Shown here piece by piece: positions 1 through 11,795 of a DNA stretch of 42,816 nt. Numbering within the stretch: the first letter of the stretch is position 1; the number at the start of each line of letters is the position of its first letter. Source of the stretch: Lutibacter sp. (GTDB lineage: Bacteria > Bacteroidota > Bacteroidia > Flavobacteriales > Flavobacteriaceae); the NCBI GenBank assembly GCA_030590985.1, contig JAUVBX010000003.1:1-42816 (forward strand), written 5' to 3'. The position numbers and the translations under genes were made by a program. A model generated the notes under the pieces. The model made no database searches. It was not told the DNA's origin and worked only from the letters and a program-made list of their open reading frames with translations.

Positions 1-1378
1 TAAGCATGATTACTATTATCTGATAGAGAAATGATTTATCTGCTGTAGGAATGATATCATCAAACATAATTCCTGACAATATTGGCACTAACAATCCTAT
101 TAAACTCCCTGCAAGTGCAGCTAATATCAAAAATTTAGTGTCCTTTTTTACACTTTGTGTTGCAAAAGAAAAAATCTTTCGTATAGAATCCATAACCACA
201 TCAAAACCATAAAAGAACATATAACTTATAGGCTCTAATTTTCCTGCTATATCATTTGTTACAATTTCTTCTTTTCCTGTTGTTACATCTTTTATTAAAT
301 AGGTTTTAGGTGTTCGTTGAATTAAAGCTACAGGTCTTTTGTCTTCTTTTAAAAATGCCAAAAGGTGGCCATTTTCTTCTTTCCACCAAGTTCCCCTAAG
401 AATGATTTTTCTCACTCTTACTTTTGATGTTTGAGCAATAGCAAACAATTGATTTGTTGTGCTACTATTGTAAGATTCCATAAATTTAGGAGCTCCAAAC
501 TCAAAACCTACTTTATCTCCTATTAGTTGACACGTTTTTAAAAGATTATTTGTAATACCTGTTTTTGTAGCAGAAATAGTATCTAATTCTTTTTTATCCA
601 TAACAACAGATCGAAATCTATCTAATGAAATACTCAAATTCTCTTTTTCTGATGCAACTTTGTCAGAAATTTGTTTTTTTTGTGCAGACCTTTGGTCTTC
701 ATCTTTCTTTACAAGTCTTTTGTATAAATTATCTTGAAACTCATTTAAAGAAGGTATGAAATTTTCATCATCTTGTAGAAATTCCCTAGTATTTTGAATT
801 TCTAATTCCGTATTATTTTCCAATGATTTTGCCCAATAATAACTTGATACTATAAATGGGAAATTGGTTTCTGATGCTTCATTTTGAGTGTTGACATCGA
901 TGTATTTTAATACTTTTCCTTTTTTAACTTTACACCATGCTATTCCTTTGTAAGGATAAATAATATCATCCTTTTTTAAGGAAATAGATTTTATGTTTTC
1001 TATTGATTTATAAACCCTCGGTGGATTTGTTTTATGTATTGCTTTTATTGTTTTAATAGACCATATCTCTATCATCCTTTTTAAATAAGTATGATCAAAA
1101 TCTAATAATTCATTTTTATCAATATGTAAAAGTTTTGCTCCAGCACTAACCACAACAAGTTTTAGACCTGTTTGTATTGATTCTGTTAATAAACTAAAGA
1201 GTAGTTCTCCTTTTTTTGCTCTATATAAATATTGTAAATTACTTATATAATTATTATTTTCATCTACATGTGTAAAATATATATCTACTTCACCATCAGT
1301 AATTAATAAAAACTTATTAGGATTATCTAGTAATAAGGATTTATTAACATCTAGTTTTATTTTTTTTTTGTTCGACAT
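1..1378 (-). CDS. NHLM bacteriocin system ABC transporter, second (non-peptidase) subunit with cNMP-binding-like N-terminal region; partial, 3' end outside window
   Basis: Not in ORF track. Manual minus-strand translation from ATG at 1378: MSNKKKIKLDVNKSLLLDNPNKFLLITDGEVDIYFTHVDENNN... to ...LVPILSGIMFDDIIPTADKSFLYQIIVIML at the edge; 9 bp downstream of the C39 ABC transporter and in the same orientation. Confidence 0.85.
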   Translation of the reverse strand, partial: MSNKKKIKLDVNKSLLLDNPNKFLLITDGEVDIYFTHVDENNNYISNLQYLYRAKKGELLFSLLTESIQTGLKLVVVSAGAKLLHIDKNELLDFDHTYLKRMIEIWSIKTIKAIHKTNPPRVYKSIENIKSISLKKDDIIYPYKGIAWCKVKKGKVLKYIDVNTQNEASETNFPFIVSSYYWAKSLENNTELEIQNTREFLQDDENFIPSLNEFQDNLYKRLVKKDEDQRSAQKKQISDKVASEKENLSISLDRFRSVVMDKKELDTISATKTGITNNLLKTCQLIGDKVGFEFGAPKFMESYNSSTTNQLFAIAQTSKVRVRKIILRGTWWKEENGHLLAFLKEDKRPVALIQRTPKTYLIKDVTTGKEEIVTNDIAGKLEPISYMFFYGFDVVMDSIRKIFSFATQSVKKDTKFLILAALAGSLIGLLVPILSGIMFDDIIPTADKSFLYQIIVIML

Positions 1379-1387
1379 AAGTATTCT

Positions 1388-3628
1388 TTATTTTGAATCA
1401 ATTAATTCAGCATACACTCCATCATTTGCTATTAATTCTTGATGAGATCCACGTTCTACAATTTTCCCATTATCCATTACAATGATTTCATCGCAATCGA
1501 GTATCGTGCTTAACCTATGCGCTACAATAAGACTGGTACATCCTCTTTTCTTTATATTATCCATCACTATTTTTTCTGATTTTGGATCTAAAGCACTTGT
1601 TGCTTCATCCATTACTAAAATAGAGGGGTTAAGCGCTAATGCCCTTGCAATTTCTAAACGTTGTCGTTGACCACCACTAAAATTGGCTCCCCTTTCAGAA
1701 ACCATATTATCATAAGCGCTAGTTCGTAATGCAATCGTTTCATGAATATCAGCATCATGTGCTGATTGAATAATATTGTGATCTGCTATATGCGTATCCC
1801 AAAATGAAATATTCTCTTTTACTGTTCCTTCAAACATTAACACTTCTTGATCTATGACTGCTACAGATTCGGTGATAATATGTCTAGGAATATCTTTTCT
1901 AACTATATTATCAAATAAAATTTCTCCTTCCCAAGGATTGTACAGACCAGCCACCAACCTTGCTACAGTTGACTTCCCACATCCAGAACCACCTACAAGA
2001 GCAACTCTTTTACCAGGGATAAGTTTTAGGTTAAAATCTTCAATTAATGCAGGCATTGTTGGGTTATACCCAAAGGTTACATTTTTTATTTCAAGATGTC
2101 CAGTTAATTTTCCAGTAAAGAACTCAGAAGTATCGGTTTCAATATCTTCTTGAGATGATTGATTGTCATTGTCATTTGGTGTATCATTTTCTACGGTCTC
2201 TTTGAAATCATCTGAAATTTCATAATTCAACACATCATCAATTCGTCCCATATCACCTTCAGTTTCTTGTAACAGTCCACCGACATTTACCAACTGATTT
2301 ACAGGACCTAAAAAATTACTCATTAAATATAAAAATGCAACTAACATCCCTAATGTCATATGCCCATCCATAACTCGCATTGCACCAACACCAAGAATAA
2401 TAGTTGATATAAATGACATAAGAAGTGGTGGTATTGTATTAACTCTAGCTGTTAACCAACCCAATTCCTGTTGTGCATTCGTCACTTTTGCTAAATAACC
2501 TACCCATGTAGTAAAAAAATCATTTTCTCTTCCTGATGCTTTTAATGTTTCAACCATGCTTATACCTGACGTGGTAGTTCCCATTAGTTTTCCATTTTCA
2601 TTTATCAAACGGCGGTTACCATCTTTACGTGCTCTAGAAACATATAGCATAGTAAAAGCATTAATTGCTGCCATTCCTATTCCAATTAACGTTAATACAA
2701 CATCATAAGTAAACATTAACATGGCATAGAAAACAACTACAATTACATTTAATATTGCATTAGCAAGTTCACCGCTTAATAATTTTGCAACTTTATCGTT
2801 TAGTGATACTCTACTGCCTATTTCACCACTATAACGTTGTGTGAAAAAAGATATGGGTAAATGAAAAACATGCCATAAAAACTTACTAGAAGATGTTAAT
2901 GCTAACTTTGTCTCTAATCTCAATAGGTAATACTGTTGCACATACACTAATACTGAATTTACAGCGAGCATTCCACCCATAATTAGTAATAAAGGCATTA
3001 CAAATCCAGAAATTCTGTTTATTAAATAATTATCAATAAAAATTTTAGTAAAAGAGGGGATTATTAAACCAGGAATAACTAAAAATAGACTCGCAATAAG
3101 TATATATGTTAATGCTGCTTTAGAGCCTTTTACTCTTGAGATTAAAGAATTTACCAATCCCTTTTTTTCATTCCCTTTTTCAAACTTTTCATTGGGCTCA
3201 AATGTCATAACAACACCTGTAAAAGCATCGTCAAATTCTTCATGACTGATATGGTATCTTCCCTGTGCAGGATCACTTAAAAATACTTTTTTCTTTGTAA
3301 AACCTTCAAGAACTAAAAAATGATTGAAATTCCAAAAAATTATTGCAGGCATTTGTAGTTGCATTAATTTTTCAATAGATTTAGCGTATCCTTTTGATTC
3401 AAGACCATATTTTCTAGCAGCTTTTAAAATATTTGTTGCTTTTAATCCATCTCTAGAAACACCTGTTTCTATTCTCAGTTTTTCTAATGGTACATATCTG
3501 CCATGATATCCTAAAATGATACCTAAAGCTGCTGCACCGCATTCTACACCTTCCATCTGTAAGATAGTTGGTGTTTTTACAGGTCTTGCTTGTTTCTCTA
3601 TATTTATATCTTTGGTTTTTTTAGCCAT
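1388..3628 (-). CDS. NHLM-type peptidase-containing ABC transporter (C39 peptidase + TM + ATPase)
   Basis: C39 motifs QMEGVECGAAAL, NFNHFLVLEG, LSDPAQG; Walker A GGSGCGKST; signature FSGGQRQR; Walker B ILVMDEATSALD. Confidence 0.95.
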   Translation of the reverse strand: MAKKTKDINIEKQARPVKTPTILQMEGVECGAAALGIILGYHGRYVPLEKLRIETGVSRDGLKATNILKAARKYGLESKGYAKSIEKLMQLQMPAIIFWNFNHFLVLEGFTKKKVFLSDPAQGRYHISHEEFDDAFTGVVMTFEPNEKFEKGNEKKGLVNSLISRVKGSKAALTYILIASLFLVIPGLIIPSFTKIFIDNYLINRISGFVMPLLLIMGGMLAVNSVLVYVQQYYLLRLETKLALTSSSKFLWHVFHLPISFFTQRYSGEIGSRVSLNDKVAKLLSGELANAILNVIVVVFYAMLMFTYDVVLTLIGIGMAAINAFTMLYVSRARKDGNRRLINENGKLMGTTTSGISMVETLKASGRENDFFTTWVGYLAKVTNAQQELGWLTARVNTIPPLLMSFISTIILGVGAMRVMDGHMTLGMLVAFLYLMSNFLGPVNQLVNVGGLLQETEGDMGRIDDVLNYEISDDFKETVENDTPNDNDNQSSQEDIETDTSEFFTGKLTGHLEIKNVTFGYNPTMPALIEDFNLKLIPGKRVALVGGSGCGKSTVARLVAGLYNPWEGEILFDNIVRKDIPRHIITESVAVIDQEVLMFEGTVKENISFWDTHIADHNIIQSAHDADIHETIALRTSAYDNMVSERGANFSGGQRQRLEIARALALNPSILVMDEATSALDPKSEKIVMDNIKKRGCTSLIVAHRLSTILDCDEIIVMDNGKIVERGSHQELIANDGVYAELIDSK

Positions 3629-3637
3629 GCTTAATAT

Positions 3638-4903
3638 TTAATATAATTCAAAGAATTTTTTCAATGCGGGAATAACTGTAGTTATTGGTCGTTCTGATTT
3701 AACAGTTATTTTCCCCATACATGAGGTACCTTCATTTATCAATATCTCAGGACCTCCTGCAGAAGTCCAAGTAAATCCACTAAAAGAATCTGGATCTTTT
3801 TCAAATTCGATATAAACTTCAAATAATGCTCCCATTTTTAGCAAGCCTTGAACTAATTGATCGTTTTTTACTGATGTCATCATACCTTTTTGAGTAATTG
3901 GAAAATCAGATACATAAGTAACTTTACCTTTCATATATCCATATTCTTGAGGCTGAACGGTGGAAGGAACAATCAAAGCTTCCATTCCTTCTTTTATTTT
4001 TTTTCCGTCTTTTGATTGGATATAAACAACACCTCTTAACCGATCACTATTATTAACTGTATTTAAGCTTTTCAATTTAAATAAAGGAGAACCTTGACTA
4101 ACCATAATACCTGCATCTGTTAGTATCTCCACTACTTGTCCCCTGTATTGACTTCGGATGTTTGTTTGGATTTCGTGGCGTTCTTCTAAATGCTCCAACC
4201 TTCTTTCTGTTTCTGCTATTCGTTGTCTTTGAATATTAATTTTTTGTTTTAAATCAAAACCAATATTTAAACTTTGCGAAGAAGATTGAACTAGTTGTGC
4301 TTTAAGATTTTCTATTGAATTCTTAGCATTTTCAATTTGTTGTTCTGTACTTGCAACTTGGTTCTTTGTAACCAATCCTTTTTGTAATAAATCATTTTCA
4401 GTATTTAATTTGTTATTTAAATAATTCAAATTCTTTTTATTAGTTTTAATCTTCAATTCAATACTTTTTTTCTGTTGTTGCACTAAATTTTCTTGTAAAC
4501 TTGAACCTTTATTACCGTAGGACAGAATTTGTTGCAAATCATGGTCTCGCTCTATTAATGAAGCTTTAGTTTCTTCAACTTTTTGAAATAGTTCTGGTTG
4601 TTCTATAACTGCAATAACATCCCCTTCCTGTATTTTGTCTCCAATGTTTACCTTTAAATCTATTAATTGCCCTTGTGAGGTTGAAACAACCTCATGTATT
4701 TCACCACCCAATAATACTCCAACTACATTTAGTTTTGTTTTTACTTTCCCAAAAAATGACCATCCAATACCAGTGCCTAAAGCAAGAAGTACGGTAAGTA
4801 ATACTATCCAAGCTCTTGGGTTAGTAACTTTTATTAATTGATCTAATTTTTCTGGTGTAGAAAGCTTTTCTAATGCTGCTTTTCTAAAAAAACCTGCGGC
4901 CAT
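3638..4903 (-). CDS. HlyD-family NHLM bacteriocin system secretion protein (periplasmic adaptor)
   Basis: N-terminus FFRKAALEKLSTPEKLDQLIKVTNPRAWIVLL resembles NHLM HlyD proteins; single TM, biotinyl-lipoyl-like region, long coiled coil. Confidence 0.93.
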   Translation of the reverse strand: MAAGFFRKAALEKLSTPEKLDQLIKVTNPRAWIVLLTVLLALGTGIGWSFFGKVKTKLNVVGVLLGGEIHEVVSTSQGQLIDLKVNIGDKIQEGDVIAVIEQPELFQKVEETKASLIERDHDLQQILSYGNKGSSLQENLVQQQKKSIELKIKTNKKNLNYLNNKLNTENDLLQKGLVTKNQVASTEQQIENAKNSIENLKAQLVQSSSQSLNIGFDLKQKINIQRQRIAETERRLEHLEERHEIQTNIRSQYRGQVVEILTDAGIMVSQGSPLFKLKSLNTVNNSDRLRGVVYIQSKDGKKIKEGMEALIVPSTVQPQEYGYMKGKVTYVSDFPITQKGMMTSVKNDQLVQGLLKMGALFEVYIEFEKDPDSFSGFTWTSAGGPEILINEGTSCMGKITVKSERPITTVIPALKKFFELY

Positions 4904-4919
4904 ATCTTTGTTTTTTAAA

Positions 4920-6491
4920 TTATTTAATTATTGGAAATTGGTAAAAAACATCATTTTTTGGTGTTACTATAAAATTGTCTTTTACTGTTAATAATGTTCC
5001 CGTTTCATATCTTAGATTTATTATTGCTATTGCAAATTGTTGTTGCGATCTTATATACTCTAATTGAGAATATGTCAAACGTTCTTGTAGCAGTAGTAGA
5101 TTTAACAATGTGGTCATCCCGTTGTGAAACTTTTCTTCTTCATTAGCAAAAACTTTTTTATACAGTTCTAGTGATTCACTTGCTTTTTCTAAAATCGATA
5201 CGCTATTTATTAAATTATGAAATGTGATATTGACATTAATGTTAGTGTTGTTTTTTAAGTTTTCATAAGATACTTGTTGCTCTGCTAAAGTTGTTTTTGA
5301 TTGCAGAAAAGATCCTTTTGCATATTTGTTGTTTAAAGATAATTGTAAATTTAATTTAAGACCTAAGAGATAATTACTCCCTTGTTTATTTGTAAAGGTG
5401 TTAAAAGTGTAATCAATTCCATTACCCATGTTCATGCCTCCATAATTGACAAAACCTGTAAGGTCTAACTGAGGTTTAAGATTATTCTTTGCACTCGCCA
5501 ATTGAAGTTCAAGACCCTCAAGTATTGTTTCATAGGATTTAATATCTGCTCTATTAGCTACTGCGGAACTCATGAGTTTTTCTATATTAATATCTTCATT
5601 AAAACTAGTGTCAAAAATTTCAGGAAATTCATTTTGAGGAATTCCAATTTTTTGACTTTCTTTTTCATCTAAACCTATAGTTCGTCCTAAATTCAACCTA
5701 GTGTTATGTAAACTCTGTTCAGCTTGTTTAGTTTGTCTTTCTTGACTGGCTAGATCAGCTTGTATTTGATAAAGATCACTTGCCGGCTTCTTGTCTGCTT
5801 TTACTAACTCTATGGTGTTTTGTAAAACATTCCTTACTCTTTGTTCATTTTCTTCATATATTATTAGACTTTTATAAGCTCCTAAATATTGCCAATAAGC
5901 AACACCCATTTGCAAAAATTCAATTGAATTTGTTGCTCTATAGTTATTTTCAGCACTTTCAAGATTTAAAATTGAAACTTTTTCTACTACAGCAACATTT
6001 TTTTCTCCCCTTCCTTTTAATAAGGGTTGTGTGAGTGATAGTGTTGTTGATACTTTATGATCTGAAACACCACTTCCTACTTCCTGATTAAACCTATTAA
6101 AAGGATAATTGTCTGAAGCTTGAGAATAATCCAAACTTAAGTTTGCGTATAAACCTGAGCGGAATTTTCGTTGTAACCCGATTGAAAAATCAGAATTAAA
6201 TGCTTCTAATTTCCCACTTAAAATGTCATTTCTTGGATCTACTTCAAAAAGATTCTCTTTGTTCTGACTTGCGGAAGCTGATGAAATTAGCTGATAATCA
6301 AATATGCTCCCTTGAACTATTGTGTTTGCTTTTGCCCTATCAATACTTAGTTCACCTCCTCTAATAGTTAAATTATTCTTTAATGTCAGTTCAGATAAGT
6401 TAAAAAGATTGCATTCAATGGATGATTGACTAAATGTAGTTGTAGAAAGGATTAGTAATATTCCTAATAAATATAAAGATTTATTAATCAT
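4920..6491 (-). CDS. TolC-family outer membrane factor
   Basis: Signal peptide, TolC-like repeat architecture, operonic with HlyD/ABC genes. Confidence 0.88.
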   Translation of the reverse strand: MINKSLYLLGILLILSTTTFSQSSIECNLFNLSELTLKNNLTIRGGELSIDRAKANTIVQGSIFDYQLISSASASQNKENLFEVDPRNDILSGKLEAFNSDFSIGLQRKFRSGLYANLSLDYSQASDNYPFNRFNQEVGSGVSDHKVSTTLSLTQPLLKGRGEKNVAVVEKVSILNLESAENNYRATNSIEFLQMGVAYWQYLGAYKSLIIYEENEQRVRNVLQNTIELVKADKKPASDLYQIQADLASQERQTKQAEQSLHNTRLNLGRTIGLDEKESQKIGIPQNEFPEIFDTSFNEDINIEKLMSSAVANRADIKSYETILEGLELQLASAKNNLKPQLDLTGFVNYGGMNMGNGIDYTFNTFTNKQGSNYLLGLKLNLQLSLNNKYAKGSFLQSKTTLAEQQVSYENLKNNTNINVNITFHNLINSVSILEKASESLELYKKVFANEEEKFHNGMTTLLNLLLLQERLTYSQLEYIRSQQQFAIAIINLRYETGTLLTVKDNFIVTPKNDVFYQFPIIK

Positions 6492-6515
6492 TGTAATAAT
6501 ATTAAATATGTGATA

Positions 6516-7037
6516 TTAGACTTCTGAAAATTTCTTCAATAATTCATTAAATCTTTCACCTGCCTGTGCTATTCCATCAAGAATATTCTCATCTACCATG
6601 TCAATTTCCTCAGGAGAGTCAAAACCTAATTGCTCAGTAGTTCTACGTAATCTATTAGAAAGGAACAATGCAATGGCATAATAAAAATTTGCTTTGAATG
6701 CTGTGTCAATATCAAATCTGTTTTGCATCATCTCGCGAGATACACTATACACAGAACTTGGTTCTTCAGCAACTACAGATACTGATGGTGGACGAGATTC
6801 AAGGAATGACATTTCACCCACAACCTCTCCAACTCCTATCTGTGCGATACTCTTACCATCATTTACTCCATCGACTACTGAGAAACTACCCGATAAAATT
6901 ATATACAGTTTTTCAATAGCTACCCCCTTGGTTATCAAGCTATCGTTTGTTGCAATATTTTCTTTTTTGCCATTATTTATCATCCACTCGACGTCTCTGT
7001 CTTTTAAGTGCCCGAGTAAAAAAAGTACTCTTTTCAT
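6516..7037 (-). CDS. Cyclic nucleotide-binding domain protein of the NHLM-associated type
   Basis: MKRVLFLLGHLKDRDVEWMINNGKKENI...LYIILSGSFSVVDG...VGEVVGEMSFLESRPPSVSVVA; no HTH seen; first gene of the minus-strand operon. Confidence 0.88.
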   Translation of the reverse strand: MKRVLFLLGHLKDRDVEWMINNGKKENIATNDSLITKGVAIEKLYIILSGSFSVVDGVNDGKSIAQIGVGEVVGEMSFLESRPPSVSVVAEEPSSVYSVSREMMQNRFDIDTAFKANFYYAIALFLSNRLRRTTEQLGFDSPEEIDMVDENILDGIAQAGERFNELLKKFSEV

Positions 7038-7193
7038 ACTAAAAAATTTAAATTAATTATTACTTTATTTGATAATGCTAATTTAGTGTGGACAGACTTT
7101 GTAAAACTGACAAAAAAACAGAAAGAACTGACGATAATCATTTTTAGCATTAAATATTCCTTTTTTTTCTAACTTAGCCAAAAATTACTATTT

Positions 7194-8735
7194 ATGCTCA
7201 CAAAAGTCTATGGATCTGCCGTTTTTGGTGTAGAAGCTACAACAATAACTGTCGAAGTTAATATTGATTCAGGTGTCGGTTACCATTTAGTTGGTTTACC
7301 AGATAATGCAATCAAAGAAAGCAACTATCGTATTGCAGCGGCACTTCAAAACAATGGTTTTAAAATTCCTGGAAAGAAAATTACCCTAAATATGGCACCT
7401 GCCAATATGCGTAAGGAAGGAAGTGCCTATGATTTGACGTTGGCAACTGGTATTTTAATTGCTTCCGGTCAAATAAAAGGGGAAGATAAAGTAGGTGATT
7501 ATATAATCATGGGTGAATTATCATTAGACGGTAGTTTACAACCCATTAGAGGAGCACTGCCAATTGCTGTCAAAGCTCGTGAAGAGGGTTTTAAAGGTTT
7601 TATACTGCCTGCGCAAAATGCTAAAGAAGCTGCAATAGTAAATGATTTAGAAGTTTATGGTATCGATCATATTAGCAAAGTAATTGATTTTTTTGATAAA
7701 AATATTCCTCTTGAGCCTACTGTTATCGATACTCGAAAAGAATTTTATGAAAGTCTGGAAAACCCTGAATTTGACTTTGCTGATGTTAAAGGCCAAGAAA
7801 CCATCAAACGCTGTATGGAAATTGCCGCTGCAGGTGGACACAATATTATTTTGATAGGGCCACCAGGAAGTGGAAAAACAATGTTAGCAAAAAGATTACC
7901 CTCCATCCTACCCCCTATGACCTTGTCTGAAGCTTTAGAAACCACCAAGATTCACTCAGTGGTAGGTCGTGTAAAAGAAAACTCTGGATTAATGAGTCAA
8001 AGACCTTTTAGAAGTCCACATCACACAATATCAGATGTTGCACTTGTCGGTGGCGGAACCTATCCGCAACCCGGAGAAATATCCATGTCACATAATGGAG
8101 TGCTTTTTCTTGATGAATTACCCGAGTTTAAACGTACAGTTTTAGAAGTGATGAGACAACCTTTAGAAGATAGAGAAGTTACCATTTCACGAGCAAAATT
8201 TACTGTAACTTATCCTTCTTCATTTATGTTAGTGGCGAGTATGAACCCTAGTCCAAGTGGTTATTTTAATAATCCTGATAGCCCTATGACTTCCTCTCCT
8301 GCTGAAATGCAACGCTATTTAGGAAAAGTATCTGGTCCTCTATTAGATCGTATAGATATACATATTGAAGTGACACCAGTACCTTTTGAAAAACTAGCTG
8401 AAGAACGCCGTGGAGAACCTAGTAAAATTATTAGAGAACGAGTAATCGCTGCACGTGAACTTCAAACCGATAGATTTTCTGACAGTGAAAAAGTGCATTA
8501 TAATGCGCAAATGGGTGTAAAACAAATACGGAAGTACTGCAAATTATCGGATGAATCTATGCAACTCCTAAAAATAGCTATGGAAAAACTCAATTTATCT
8601 GCACGTGCTTATGATCGTATTTTAAAAGTCTCGCGTACCATTGCTGATTTGAGTGCTATACAAGATATTTTACCTGAACATATTGCTGAAGCTATTCAAT
8701 ATAGAAGTTTGGATAGAGATGGATGGTTGGGATAG
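7194..8735 (+). CDS. YifB/ComM-family Mg-chelatase-like AAA+ ATPase
   Basis: MLTKVYGSAVFGVEA...VDIGVGYHLVGLPDNAIKES-type N-terminus, Walker A GPPGSGKT, HNGVLFLDELPEF. Confidence 0.95.
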   Translation: MLTKVYGSAVFGVEATTITVEVNIDSGVGYHLVGLPDNAIKESNYRIAAALQNNGFKIPGKKITLNMAPANMRKEGSAYDLTLATGILIASGQIKGEDKVGDYIIMGELSLDGSLQPIRGALPIAVKAREEGFKGFILPAQNAKEAAIVNDLEVYGIDHISKVIDFFDKNIPLEPTVIDTRKEFYESLENPEFDFADVKGQETIKRCMEIAAAGGHNIILIGPPGSGKTMLAKRLPSILPPMTLSEALETTKIHSVVGRVKENSGLMSQRPFRSPHHTISDVALVGGGTYPQPGEISMSHNGVLFLDELPEFKRTVLEVMRQPLEDREVTISRAKFTVTYPSSFMLVASMNPSPSGYFNNPDSPMTSSPAEMQRYLGKVSGPLLDRIDIHIEVTPVPFEKLAEERRGEPSKIIRERVIAARELQTDRFSDSEKVHYNAQMGVKQIRKYCKLSDESMQLLKIAMEKLNLSARAYDRILKVSRTIADLSAIQDILPEHIAEAIQYRSLDRDGWLG

Positions 8736-8978: not shown

Positions 8979-10985
8979 ATGAAAAAGATGCTACTCTTTT
9001 TATTTCTTATTGTTTCTCTCTTTACATATAGTCAACAAGCTAAGATTGATAGTTTGAAACAACAATATAAACTGTTAAAAGGTCCCAAAGACAAATTAGA
9101 TGCCTTGAATCAATTATGTGACTTATTAAAAAGACAGAAGAATGATTCAGTGTCAATATTCTATTTTAATGAACTAATTGAAATGGGTAACAGGCATGAT
9201 AGTATAAAATACGTTCAAAAAGGATATGATTTATTAGCTATAGCTAATAAATTTATGGGTGATAGTTCTCAAGCAATTTATTACGGAAAAAAATCAATAG
9301 AAAAATGTGAAAAAATTGATGATATAAAAAGAAAGTTATATGCGTATAGCAATTTAAGTGCAATTTATAGTCATTTTAGAGAGTTTGAAAAAAGTAAGGA
9401 TATCCTTGGAGAAGCAATACAACTGAATAAGAATATAGTTAATGATCCTATTTCATCAGTGTTATATTCCAATTTAGGAATAGCATATGAAAGCTTAGGA
9501 GATAATGAAAAAGCAATAAAAAGCTATCTAATGGCTTCAAAAATAGCCGATGAACAAGGAAGTGTAAGAGCAAAAACAATGGCACTTTTTAATATTGGTT
9601 ATATTTATATGATTATTAAACAACCTGTAAAAGCAGAAGAATACTTGTTTAAAGCAATTAATGAGTCAAAAAAAGATAAACGTAATGAGGATTATGAATA
9701 TTACTCATATTATACCTTAGGTACAAACTTTGGAAATCAAGACAAGCATGAAATCGCAATTAAGTATTTTGAAATGGCACAATCCTATTTTGAAAAGACA
9801 AATAACTTACTATACTTATCTAATGTACTTAAAAATATAGGTTCAATATATGTTAATGTGGATAAACCAAAGAAAGCAATTTCTTATGCAAAAAAAGCTT
9901 TAAAAATTGCAAAAAAATTAGAAAATAAATACTTAATAGACGGTGCGAGAGCTACATTAATTTTGGCTTACATACATACAAAAAAGTTTAATGAAGCTGA
10001 AATTCTTTTGAATACTATAAAAGAAAAATCAATATCAGAGTTAGATATAGATAGTAAAATAGATTACTACAATAGTCATTATCTAATCAATATGAACAAG
10101 GGTTTATACCAAAAAGCACTTAATTATTATTTGCAATTAGATGACATTCAGGACTCTATAGCGATTTCAGAAAAAGACATGAATGTGAATGATATCGAAA
10201 CCAAATACCAAACTGAAAAAAAAGAAAAAGAAAACTTACAACTAAAAGCGGAACAAGTGGAGCAAACTTTAATTCTTGAAAAAGAAACCAAACAAAAATG
10301 GTATTTAAGCTTAGGTTTACTAGCTTCATTGTTTACATTAGGCGTTTTTGGTATTTATTATAACCGTAACAAAAAACAAAAAGGAGTTATTGAAAGCTTA
10401 CAAAAAGAACTACATCATCGTATTAAAAACAACCTGAGTATCATTGATACTTTTATTGAAATTGCCAAAGAAGAGTTTACTGACAAGAAATTTATCTCAA
10501 AACTTAATGAACTACAAAATAGAATAGAAAGCATAAATGAAGTTCATCAACAACTCTATCAAAACCAAGATGTCACTCAATTGAAATTAAAAAAATATAT
10601 TGATACAATTGCACAAAATGTACAGCAATCTATAAATAACTCAAATATTGAAATACAACAAAATATCCCTGATAGCGTGGGAATACGATCGGACAAATCA
10701 TTTCCTATTGGTTTGATTATCAATGAGTTTTTAACCAATTCGTTTAAGTATGCCTTTCCTTCAAATCAATTGGGAAGCATCAATATAAATTTTAAAACAA
10801 GTCAGAAACACTACCAACTTGAATTATCGGATAACGGGATAGGTTTGCCCGAAGATTTCAATATAGAAACAACCGAATCTTTTGGTATGCGCGTAATAAA
10901 ACTTTTAACAGAACAACTAAAAGGTACGTTTTTTCTCGAAAATATAAATGGTGTTCAACTTACAATTAAATTCCCAAAACAATAA
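8979..10985 (+). CDS. TPR-repeat sensor histidine kinase (HisKA_2/HWE-like)
   Basis: Signal peptide, multiple TPRs, one TM (WYLSLGLLASLFTLGVFGIYY), LQKELHHRIKNNLSIIDTFIEIA H-box, HATPase motifs. Confidence 0.92.
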   Translation: MKKMLLFLFLIVSLFTYSQQAKIDSLKQQYKLLKGPKDKLDALNQLCDLLKRQKNDSVSIFYFNELIEMGNRHDSIKYVQKGYDLLAIANKFMGDSSQAIYYGKKSIEKCEKIDDIKRKLYAYSNLSAIYSHFREFEKSKDILGEAIQLNKNIVNDPISSVLYSNLGIAYESLGDNEKAIKSYLMASKIADEQGSVRAKTMALFNIGYIYMIIKQPVKAEEYLFKAINESKKDKRNEDYEYYSYYTLGTNFGNQDKHEIAIKYFEMAQSYFEKTNNLLYLSNVLKNIGSIYVNVDKPKKAISYAKKALKIAKKLENKYLIDGARATLILAYIHTKKFNEAEILLNTIKEKSISELDIDSKIDYYNSHYLINMNKGLYQKALNYYLQLDDIQDSIAISEKDMNVNDIETKYQTEKKEKENLQLKAEQVEQTLILEKETKQKWYLSLGLLASLFTLGVFGIYYNRNKKQKGVIESLQKELHHRIKNNLSIIDTFIEIAKEEFTDKKFISKLNELQNRIESINEVHQQLYQNQDVTQLKLKKYIDTIAQNVQQSINNSNIEIQQNIPDSVGIRSDKSFPIGLIINEFLTNSFKYAFPSNQLGSININFKTSQKHYQLELSDNGIGLPEDFNIETTESFGMRVIKLLTEQLKGTFFLENINGVQLTIKFPKQ

Positions 10986-10988
10986 ATT

Positions 10989-11795
10989 ATGAAAGCACAC
11001 ATTCTAATTGTAGAAGACGAAGCCATTCTTTACGAACGTTTACGTAGAGTTTTAATTAAAGAAAACTATAGTATAGCAAAATATACACCAAGTGTGTTAG
11101 ATGCAATCTCACAAATCAAAACAAAACGACCAGATGTCGTTTTATTAGACATCCATTTAGAAGGAAAATTAACTGGATTAGATTTAGGAAATCAGCTTTC
11201 AACAACATATCACATTCCTTTTATCTATGTCACACAATTTGACGATAACGAAACCTTTTTTAAAGGATTACACACCAATCACGAGCATTTTATTGTAAAA
11301 ACTAAACCCAGACTAAATACAGGTGAAGTCTTACGAACTATTCAAACAGTTTTACACAAAAAGCAAACAAATAGTGAAATAATTATAAAAGATGGAGTTT
11401 TAGGCTTATTGGGTTATCTAAACGATATAAAAGAATATAGCAAAAATGAAGTAACCAAAATACCTGTAAATTATAAAGACATTGCTTTTTTTAGTATTGC
11501 TCCTTTTGTTAATAATAATGATAAAGAAGAAAAAATAAAAACCAATTATCTCTGGTTTTTAAACAAAGACAACCAACATTTCTTTTTAAAATCATCCTTA
11601 AAAGAACTAAATAAGCATCTACCAAACTACTTTGTACGGGTTAATGACTCTTATATCATAAACTTACTTCCCTTTTTTTTTGATGGAAGAATTAATGGCA
11701 AAAGACTATCCATTTTTAAACACAAAATCCTCATCAAAGAAACATACTCCCAAGAGTTAAAAAAACGTATTAAAGAATTGTATTATACTCCCTAG
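10989..11795 (+). CDS. LytTR-family response regulator
   Basis: Receiver ILIVEDEAI...PDVVLLDIHLEGKLTG; LytTR-like C-terminus (FVRVNDSYIINL); 3 bp after the kinase. Confidence 0.92.
   Translation: MKAHILIVEDEAILYERLRRVLIKENYSIAKYTPSVLDAISQIKTKRPDVVLLDIHLEGKLTGLDLGNQLSTTYHIPFIYVTQFDDNETFFKGLHTNHEHFIVKTKPRLNTGEVLRTIQTVLHKKQTNSEIIIKDGVLGLLGYLNDIKEYSKNEVTKIPVNYKDIAFFSIAPFVNNNDKEEKIKTNYLWFLNKDNQHFFLKSSLKELNKHLPNYFVRVNDSYIINLLPFFFDGRINGKRLSIFKHKILIKETYSQELKKRIKELYYTP

Follow-up and report, generated by a model that had tools for sequence, protein, structure and literature searches.

The export operon at the contig end

The window analysed here is the whole of the 42.8-kb contig JAUVBX010000003.1 (C34) of Lutibacter sp., so its base 1 is a contig end; the source assembly is a Flavobacteriaceae metagenome-assembled genome (MAG) of 1.43 Mb in 84 contigs that is 56% complete. 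At the left edge of the window, five minus-strand open reading frames (ORFs), separated by gaps of 24, 16, 9 and 9 bp, together form one operon for peptide export of the NHLM type. The first gene (6516-7037) encodes a single-domain protein of 173 aa of the cyclic nucleotide monophosphate (cNMP)-binding type (PF00027, 55.1 bits), and the second (4920-6491) encodes a TolC-family outer-membrane channel of 523 aa (PF02321, 104.5 bits). They are followed by genes for an NHLM-type HlyD membrane-fusion protein of 421 aa (3638-4903), for ABC1, a C39 peptidase-permease-ATPase of 746 aa (1388-3628), and for ABC2, a second NHLM ABC transporter of which only the 5' part, 459 codons, is present (2-1378). 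The gene order, the tight minus-strand spacing and the Bacteroidota host proposed in a first-pass annotation of the sequence were confirmed. That annotation had also described a complete NHLM/NHLP operon; its assignment to NHLM export was borne out by the profile matches given below, but the operon is not complete, because ABC2 runs off the contig end at 459 of about 970 residues.

The search with the NHLM models that the first-pass annotation had proposed was carried out with the curated NCBIfam cut-offs (in bits: TIGR03794, 156.2; TIGR03796, 853.3; TIGR03797, 709.4; TIGR03896, 161; TIGR03793, 50.9). HlyD scored 309.8 bits with TIGR03794, and ABC1 scored 1040.1 bits with TIGR03796 and 132 bits with Peptidase_C39. 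Because the cut-offs of both NHLM families were passed, these matches identify the operon as an NHLM exporter and not as a generic type I secretion system. The ABC2 fragment scored 138 bits with TIGR03797 and covered only positions 2-182 of the 686 in the model, as the contig ends there; a full-length homologue from Kordia (970 aa) reached 866.7 bits. The cNMP-binding-type protein (TIGR03896, 115.8 bits; only model positions 140-317 of 317 matched) and TolC (TIGR01844, 56 bits) were under the respective cut-offs. In ABC1, the C39 motifs Q24, C30, H103 and D120 were all intact, in keeping with the earlier expectation of leader cleavage, as were the Walker A, signature, Walker B and H-loop motifs of the ATPase. 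ABC1 was 71-79% identical to most of its Bacteroidota relatives, ABC2 shared 37-54% identity with Bacteroidota homologues that are about 970 aa long, and the cNMP-binding-type protein was 48-66% identical to the proteins that occupy its position in relatives.

The operon is separated from the divergent comM gene by 156 bp (7038-7193), in which, in contrast to most relatives, neither a precursor ORF nor an AraC-type regulator was found. In six of six relatives from the genus, the nearest upstream core gene to comM is ppiD, which abuts comM in most genomes of the genus and is separated from it by a few extra ORFs in one of them (G002). In the window, the export operon occupies this place beside comM, and the junction between comM and ppiD resembles a site of insertion. 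Neither ppiD nor the whole 9-kb pth-coaX-ppiD block was found in the window's own assembly, apart from a single 43-base chance match, and the left flank of the operon is unassembled. None of the six genus relatives was found to have the exporter or NHLP genes; therefore, the operon was probably gained by the source lineage. The base composition of the window gave no sign of a foreign island, and promoter and terminator scans of the window yielded nothing above chance. On the other side of comM, positions 8979-11795 encode a TPR histidine kinase (HisKA_2) and, after it, a response regulator with a LytTR domain; the two also adjoin comM in G006. The frame at 8979-10985 was considered as a homologue of a TPR cyclase encoded near the exporters of relatives (see below), but the two have only TPR repeats in common, and the candidate was rejected as the histidine kinase with its LytTR regulator.

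Related loci and the expected cargo

Of the 30 loci with which the operon was compared, 29 were retrieved by scanning genome contigs with the ABC2 fragment (28 from Bacteroidota), and the remaining one was G116. The gene order cNMP-TolC-HlyD-ABC1-ABC2 was kept in nearly all of them. Exporter and NHLP genes occurred together in these relatives: 26 of the 30 loci contained NHLP-like ORFs, 97 altogether, and 84 of these ORFs had a recognisable site of the GG/GA type followed by a variable tail of 9-40 residues. Representative NHLP proteins scored 57.1, 64.7, 49.9 and 48.5 bits with TIGR03793. Two layouts were observed. Kordia, Aquimarina, Tenacibaculum and others have the array downstream of ABC2, around two adenylate cyclases, with the first NHLP gene 2.3-4.4 kb past ABC2; in Flavobacterium limi, G116 and a Spirosoma plasmid, the array lies upstream, together with a LanM-type protein.

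A tree of the concatenated exporter proteins was split with 100% bootstrap support, and the window fell on the side of Kordia, Aquimarina and Tenacibaculum. On this side, downstream NHLP genes were present in 13 of the 16 loci having sequence past ABC2. The exact placement of the window within its half was weakly supported (FastTree 0.85 with L021/L038; 46% bootstrap). Because comM lies upstream of the operon and the relatives on this side of the tree have downstream arrays, the array of the source organism would be expected to the left of the window. The earlier suggestion that the cargo lies there is thus probable, given the distances from ABC2 to the arrays of the comparative loci.

The cargo itself was searched for in the source genome. 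As the first-pass annotation had stated of its left end, no precursor was in view: no NHLP ORF was found in six frames of the window. On the whole assembly, the NHLP profile gave only a chance match (E 0.09) inside a 754-aa frame. As a positive control, the same profile gave 6-10 matches in each of four exporter-bearing genomes, nearly all of them beside the exporter. A Nif11-type leader, which had been named as another possible kind of cargo, was not supported, since TIGR03798 had no match in the 56% of the source genome that is assembled or in five relatives. The absence of a precursor, which the first-pass annotation would have counted as a refutation if it held for the whole genome, is uninformative, because the flank where it is expected is unassembled and the genome is only partly recovered. 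The profile also gave no match in G258, whose contig C18 encodes the second-closest ABC2-like protein in the family; this NHLM-like exporter was set aside, as its genome lacks NHLP genes.

Modification enzymes were found near the exporters of relatives. Kordia, Flavobacterium, G116 and Spirosoma have, next to their arrays, stand-alone DUF4135 proteins of 511-650 aa whose match to the LanM model goes no further than position 519 of 932, and class I Lant_dehydr proteins are encoded in Tenacibaculum and G116. Such LanM homologues, which amount to dehydratases without the cyclase half (L073:12368-13906, L079:8437-9984, L081:15937-17889 and L083:5636-7171), stand beside Cys-poor NHLP peptides. Cys made up 0.8% of the residues of the NHLP tails, and 14 of 84 tails contained any. 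Because Cys is this rare, lanthionine rings are unlikely for most of the relatives' peptides, and dehydration without ring closure, or no modification, appears to fit better.

Other features recur in these loci. A single NHLP protein is encoded 70-530 bp upstream of the cNMP gene (for example, L025:3965-4303, L033:3764-4102, L021:3625-3855 and L038:3901-4158). In Flavobacterium and allies it has a conserved tail, DYxSLYDSL, and in some loci it lacks the GG site or the tail; for these reasons, it may act as a signal or accessory protein instead of being a precursor. In most of the loci whose sequence extends far enough (L014-L041; for example, L035:12929-14098, and also L083:17100-18254), ABC2 is directly followed by a DUF7005 protein (PF22541) with an invariant HExxH and a downstream DE(L/I)xAD-like motif. 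This protein may be a zinc peptidase or another enzyme of the HExxH type belonging to the islands; no DUF7005 gene was found in the source genome. The Spirosoma plasmid NZ_CP089546.1 (L083) carries a whole NHLP island with a cyclase, NHLP genes, a methyltransferase, LanM, a regulator, the exporter and DUF7005. Therefore, such islands can sit on plasmids.

Interpretation of the operon and its alternatives

The locus is very probably the 5' part of an NHLM export operon of the kind found in marine Flavobacteriia, cut by the end of the MAG contig, and its cargo would most likely be one or more peptides with an NHLP leader (proteusin type) whose genes would lie some kilobases further left, in unassembled sequence. 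NHLP precursors of about 110-125 aa would be recognised via the leader, and a lanthipeptide dehydratase might act on some of them. Cleavage after Gly-Gly would fall to the C39 domain of ABC1, and a C-terminal peptide of about 15-40 aa would be carried outside by ABC1/ABC2, HlyD and TolC. Export would probably be regulated by the cNMP-type protein and by the N-terminus of ABC2, which is discussed below. The proposal of the first-pass annotation that the product could be an uncharacterised RiPP (ribosomally synthesised and post-translationally modified peptide) is plausible by analogy.

Several observations weigh against this explanation. No precursor or maturase was seen in the source genome, although no search was aimed at maturases; the genus relatives, six in number, have neither exporter nor NHLP genes; the window lacks two genes usually found ahead of the cNMP gene, those for the AraC regulator and an NHLP protein; and in two related loci, the exporter stands without a nearby array. 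One of them, L022, has one NHLP gene but lacks an array downstream, and in the other, L041, NHLP genes are absent from 4.3 kb upstream and 8.5 kb downstream. The lack of the operon in the genus relatives, the missing upstream genes and locus L041 would also suit an orphan or decaying exporter that was gained or kept without cargo and whose ABC2 or remainder was perhaps lost past the contig end. However, the five open frames, the intact catalytic motifs and the high identity of ABC1 to its relatives argue for selection, and NHLP genes are kept in most of the related loci, so an orphan exporter is considered unlikely.

A different cargo is offered by contig C65 of the same genome, where four ORFs for short, Cys-containing peptides with GG leaders (Bacteroid_pep, PF14406; MKKLSNLKGAKxLN..GG) lie at C65:3017-4198; two of them, tested against PF14406, scored 25.5 and 23.7 bits (cut-off 25). 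However, these peptides have a leader of another family and adjoin their own C39-ABC transporter, HlyD and VKOR/thioredoxin protein. This transporter is under the TIGR03796 cut-off (466 bits vs 853), and its HlyD scores 34 bits with TIGR03794. Service of the window's exporter to these peptides is therefore very improbable. The C65 genes form a second peptide exporter of the source genome (L061, G000:C65:1-12000), with VKOR/thioredoxin, the four GG-leader peptides, C39-ABC and HlyD at 1271-7751. The combination of ABC, HlyD and TolC is also the architecture of a generic type I protein secretion system, but the generic models were far under their cut-offs (TIGR01846, type_I_sec_HlyB, 390.8 bits vs 725.6; TIGR01843, type_I_hlyD, 53.4 bits vs 208.7) while the NHLM models passed, and two paired ABC subunits with a cNMP gene are NHLM features; this possibility can hardly be credited. 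The first-pass annotation had named hits to generic type I secretion as something that would refute its reading, and this refutation failed.

Several known systems come close to the locus. The NHLP/NHLM precursor and export families (TIGR03793, TIGR03794, TIGR03796 and TIGR03797) were defined in 2010 by Haft, Basu and Mitchell, who already listed a Bacteroidota case, Microscilla marina (PMC2887384). The locus shares with them HlyD, the C39-ABC with its motifs, the second ABC and, in relatives, the NHLP genes beside the exporter; unlike them, the window has no precursor in its assembly, a truncated ABC2, a single-domain cNMP protein under the TIGR03896 cut-off and TolC in the operon. A survey of 2,680 Flavobacteriaceae genomes reported a proteusin-like cluster of Kordia, GCF 5558 (PMC10734526), from the same family; the Kordia loci L014, L016 and L035 are related exporters with NHLP arrays and may belong to GCF 5558. 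Unlike the cluster types of that survey, the window is a fragment from a genus without the system in sister genomes. The island on plasmid unnamed8 of Spirosoma oryzicola (NZ_CP089546.1) has the same order of the five exporter genes, an ABC1 72% identical to that of the window and annotated NHLP precursors. It differs in that the precursors, LanM-type dehydratase and regulator lie upstream and DUF7005 downstream, in being plasmid-borne and in belonging to the opposite half of the exporter tree. Carnazolamide, from the cca cluster of Chryseobacterium carnipullorum, is a characterised Flavobacteriia NHLP product (PMC10676384). The cluster has the Flavobacteriia host, the NHLP leader and a DUF4135 dehydratase in common with the loci studied here, but it uses YcaO/azole chemistry and an S8 peptidase, and its dehydratase keeps a zinc-less cyclase domain that those of the relatives lack.

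A predicted nucleotide-binding module in ABC2

The N-terminus of ABC2 had no Pfam or profile match, and when profiles of it and of the operon's cNMP family were compared, no signal for a cyclic-nucleotide-binding (CNB) fold emerged. AlphaFold models of residues 1-459 and 1-207 contained two beta-barrel domains with a core pLDDT near 90; the AlphaFold2 model of residues 1-207 (758-1378, minus strand) had a pLDDT of 84 and a pTM of 0.78. With both models, the best Foldseek matches in the PDB were uniformly the tandem CNB domains of PKA-R/PKG (probability 1.00; E about 1e-6 to 1e-7, with a value of about 2e-6 for residues 1-207). The whole-length TM-scores were low (0.27-0.35), presumably because the two domains are placed differently relative to each other, and a single-domain match to the target 5kjy had a TM-score of 0.47. 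The ABC2 N-terminus is thus predicted by structure modelling to have a tandem CNB fold. The nearest precedent for an exporter with an N-terminal cNMP-type domain is HetC of Nostoc, a peptidase-containing ABC exporter in which this domain is needed for function and binds ppGpp, not cAMP (PMC10986499). In HetC, the domain is fused to the peptidase-bearing subunit, whereas here it is tandem, lies on ABC2, which has no C39 match, and was found by structure prediction only.

Two cyclases, one with a GAF-GAF-PAS architecture and one with TPR repeats, are encoded in the islands of relatives. Each has the metal aspartates together with the Lys/Asp pair that adenylate cyclases are expected to have; the last motif was missed by a simple pattern in four GAF-PAS copies. 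In the cNMP protein of the window (SRPPSVSV) and in almost every operon copy, the position of the Arg of the CRP phosphate cassette is occupied by Pro, which makes cAMP less likely as the ligand. It is conceivable, though doubtful, that a nucleotide second messenger acts as the gate for NHLP export in Bacteroidota, with the CNB module of ABC2 and the cNMP protein responding to a signal set by the class III adenylate cyclases of the islands. If so, secretion of a RiPP-like peptide, and not transcription alone, would be under the control of cAMP or a related nucleotide. In the limited literature searched, no description was found of the CNB-like ABC2 module with island cyclases, of the DUF7005 HExxH protein or of the cyclase-less LanM.

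With the window, a known export family gains a further host, and the truncation explains why the cargo appeared absent. The comparison carries more weight: it points to a conserved Bacteroidota island, found on chromosomes and on a plasmid, that joins NHLP arrays, an exporter in which a CNB-like module is hidden, adenylate cyclases, a DUF7005 HExxH protein and LanM-type dehydratases without the cyclase half. This island opens the way to direct tests of the switch for secretion of proteusin-like peptides and of the nature of these peptides.

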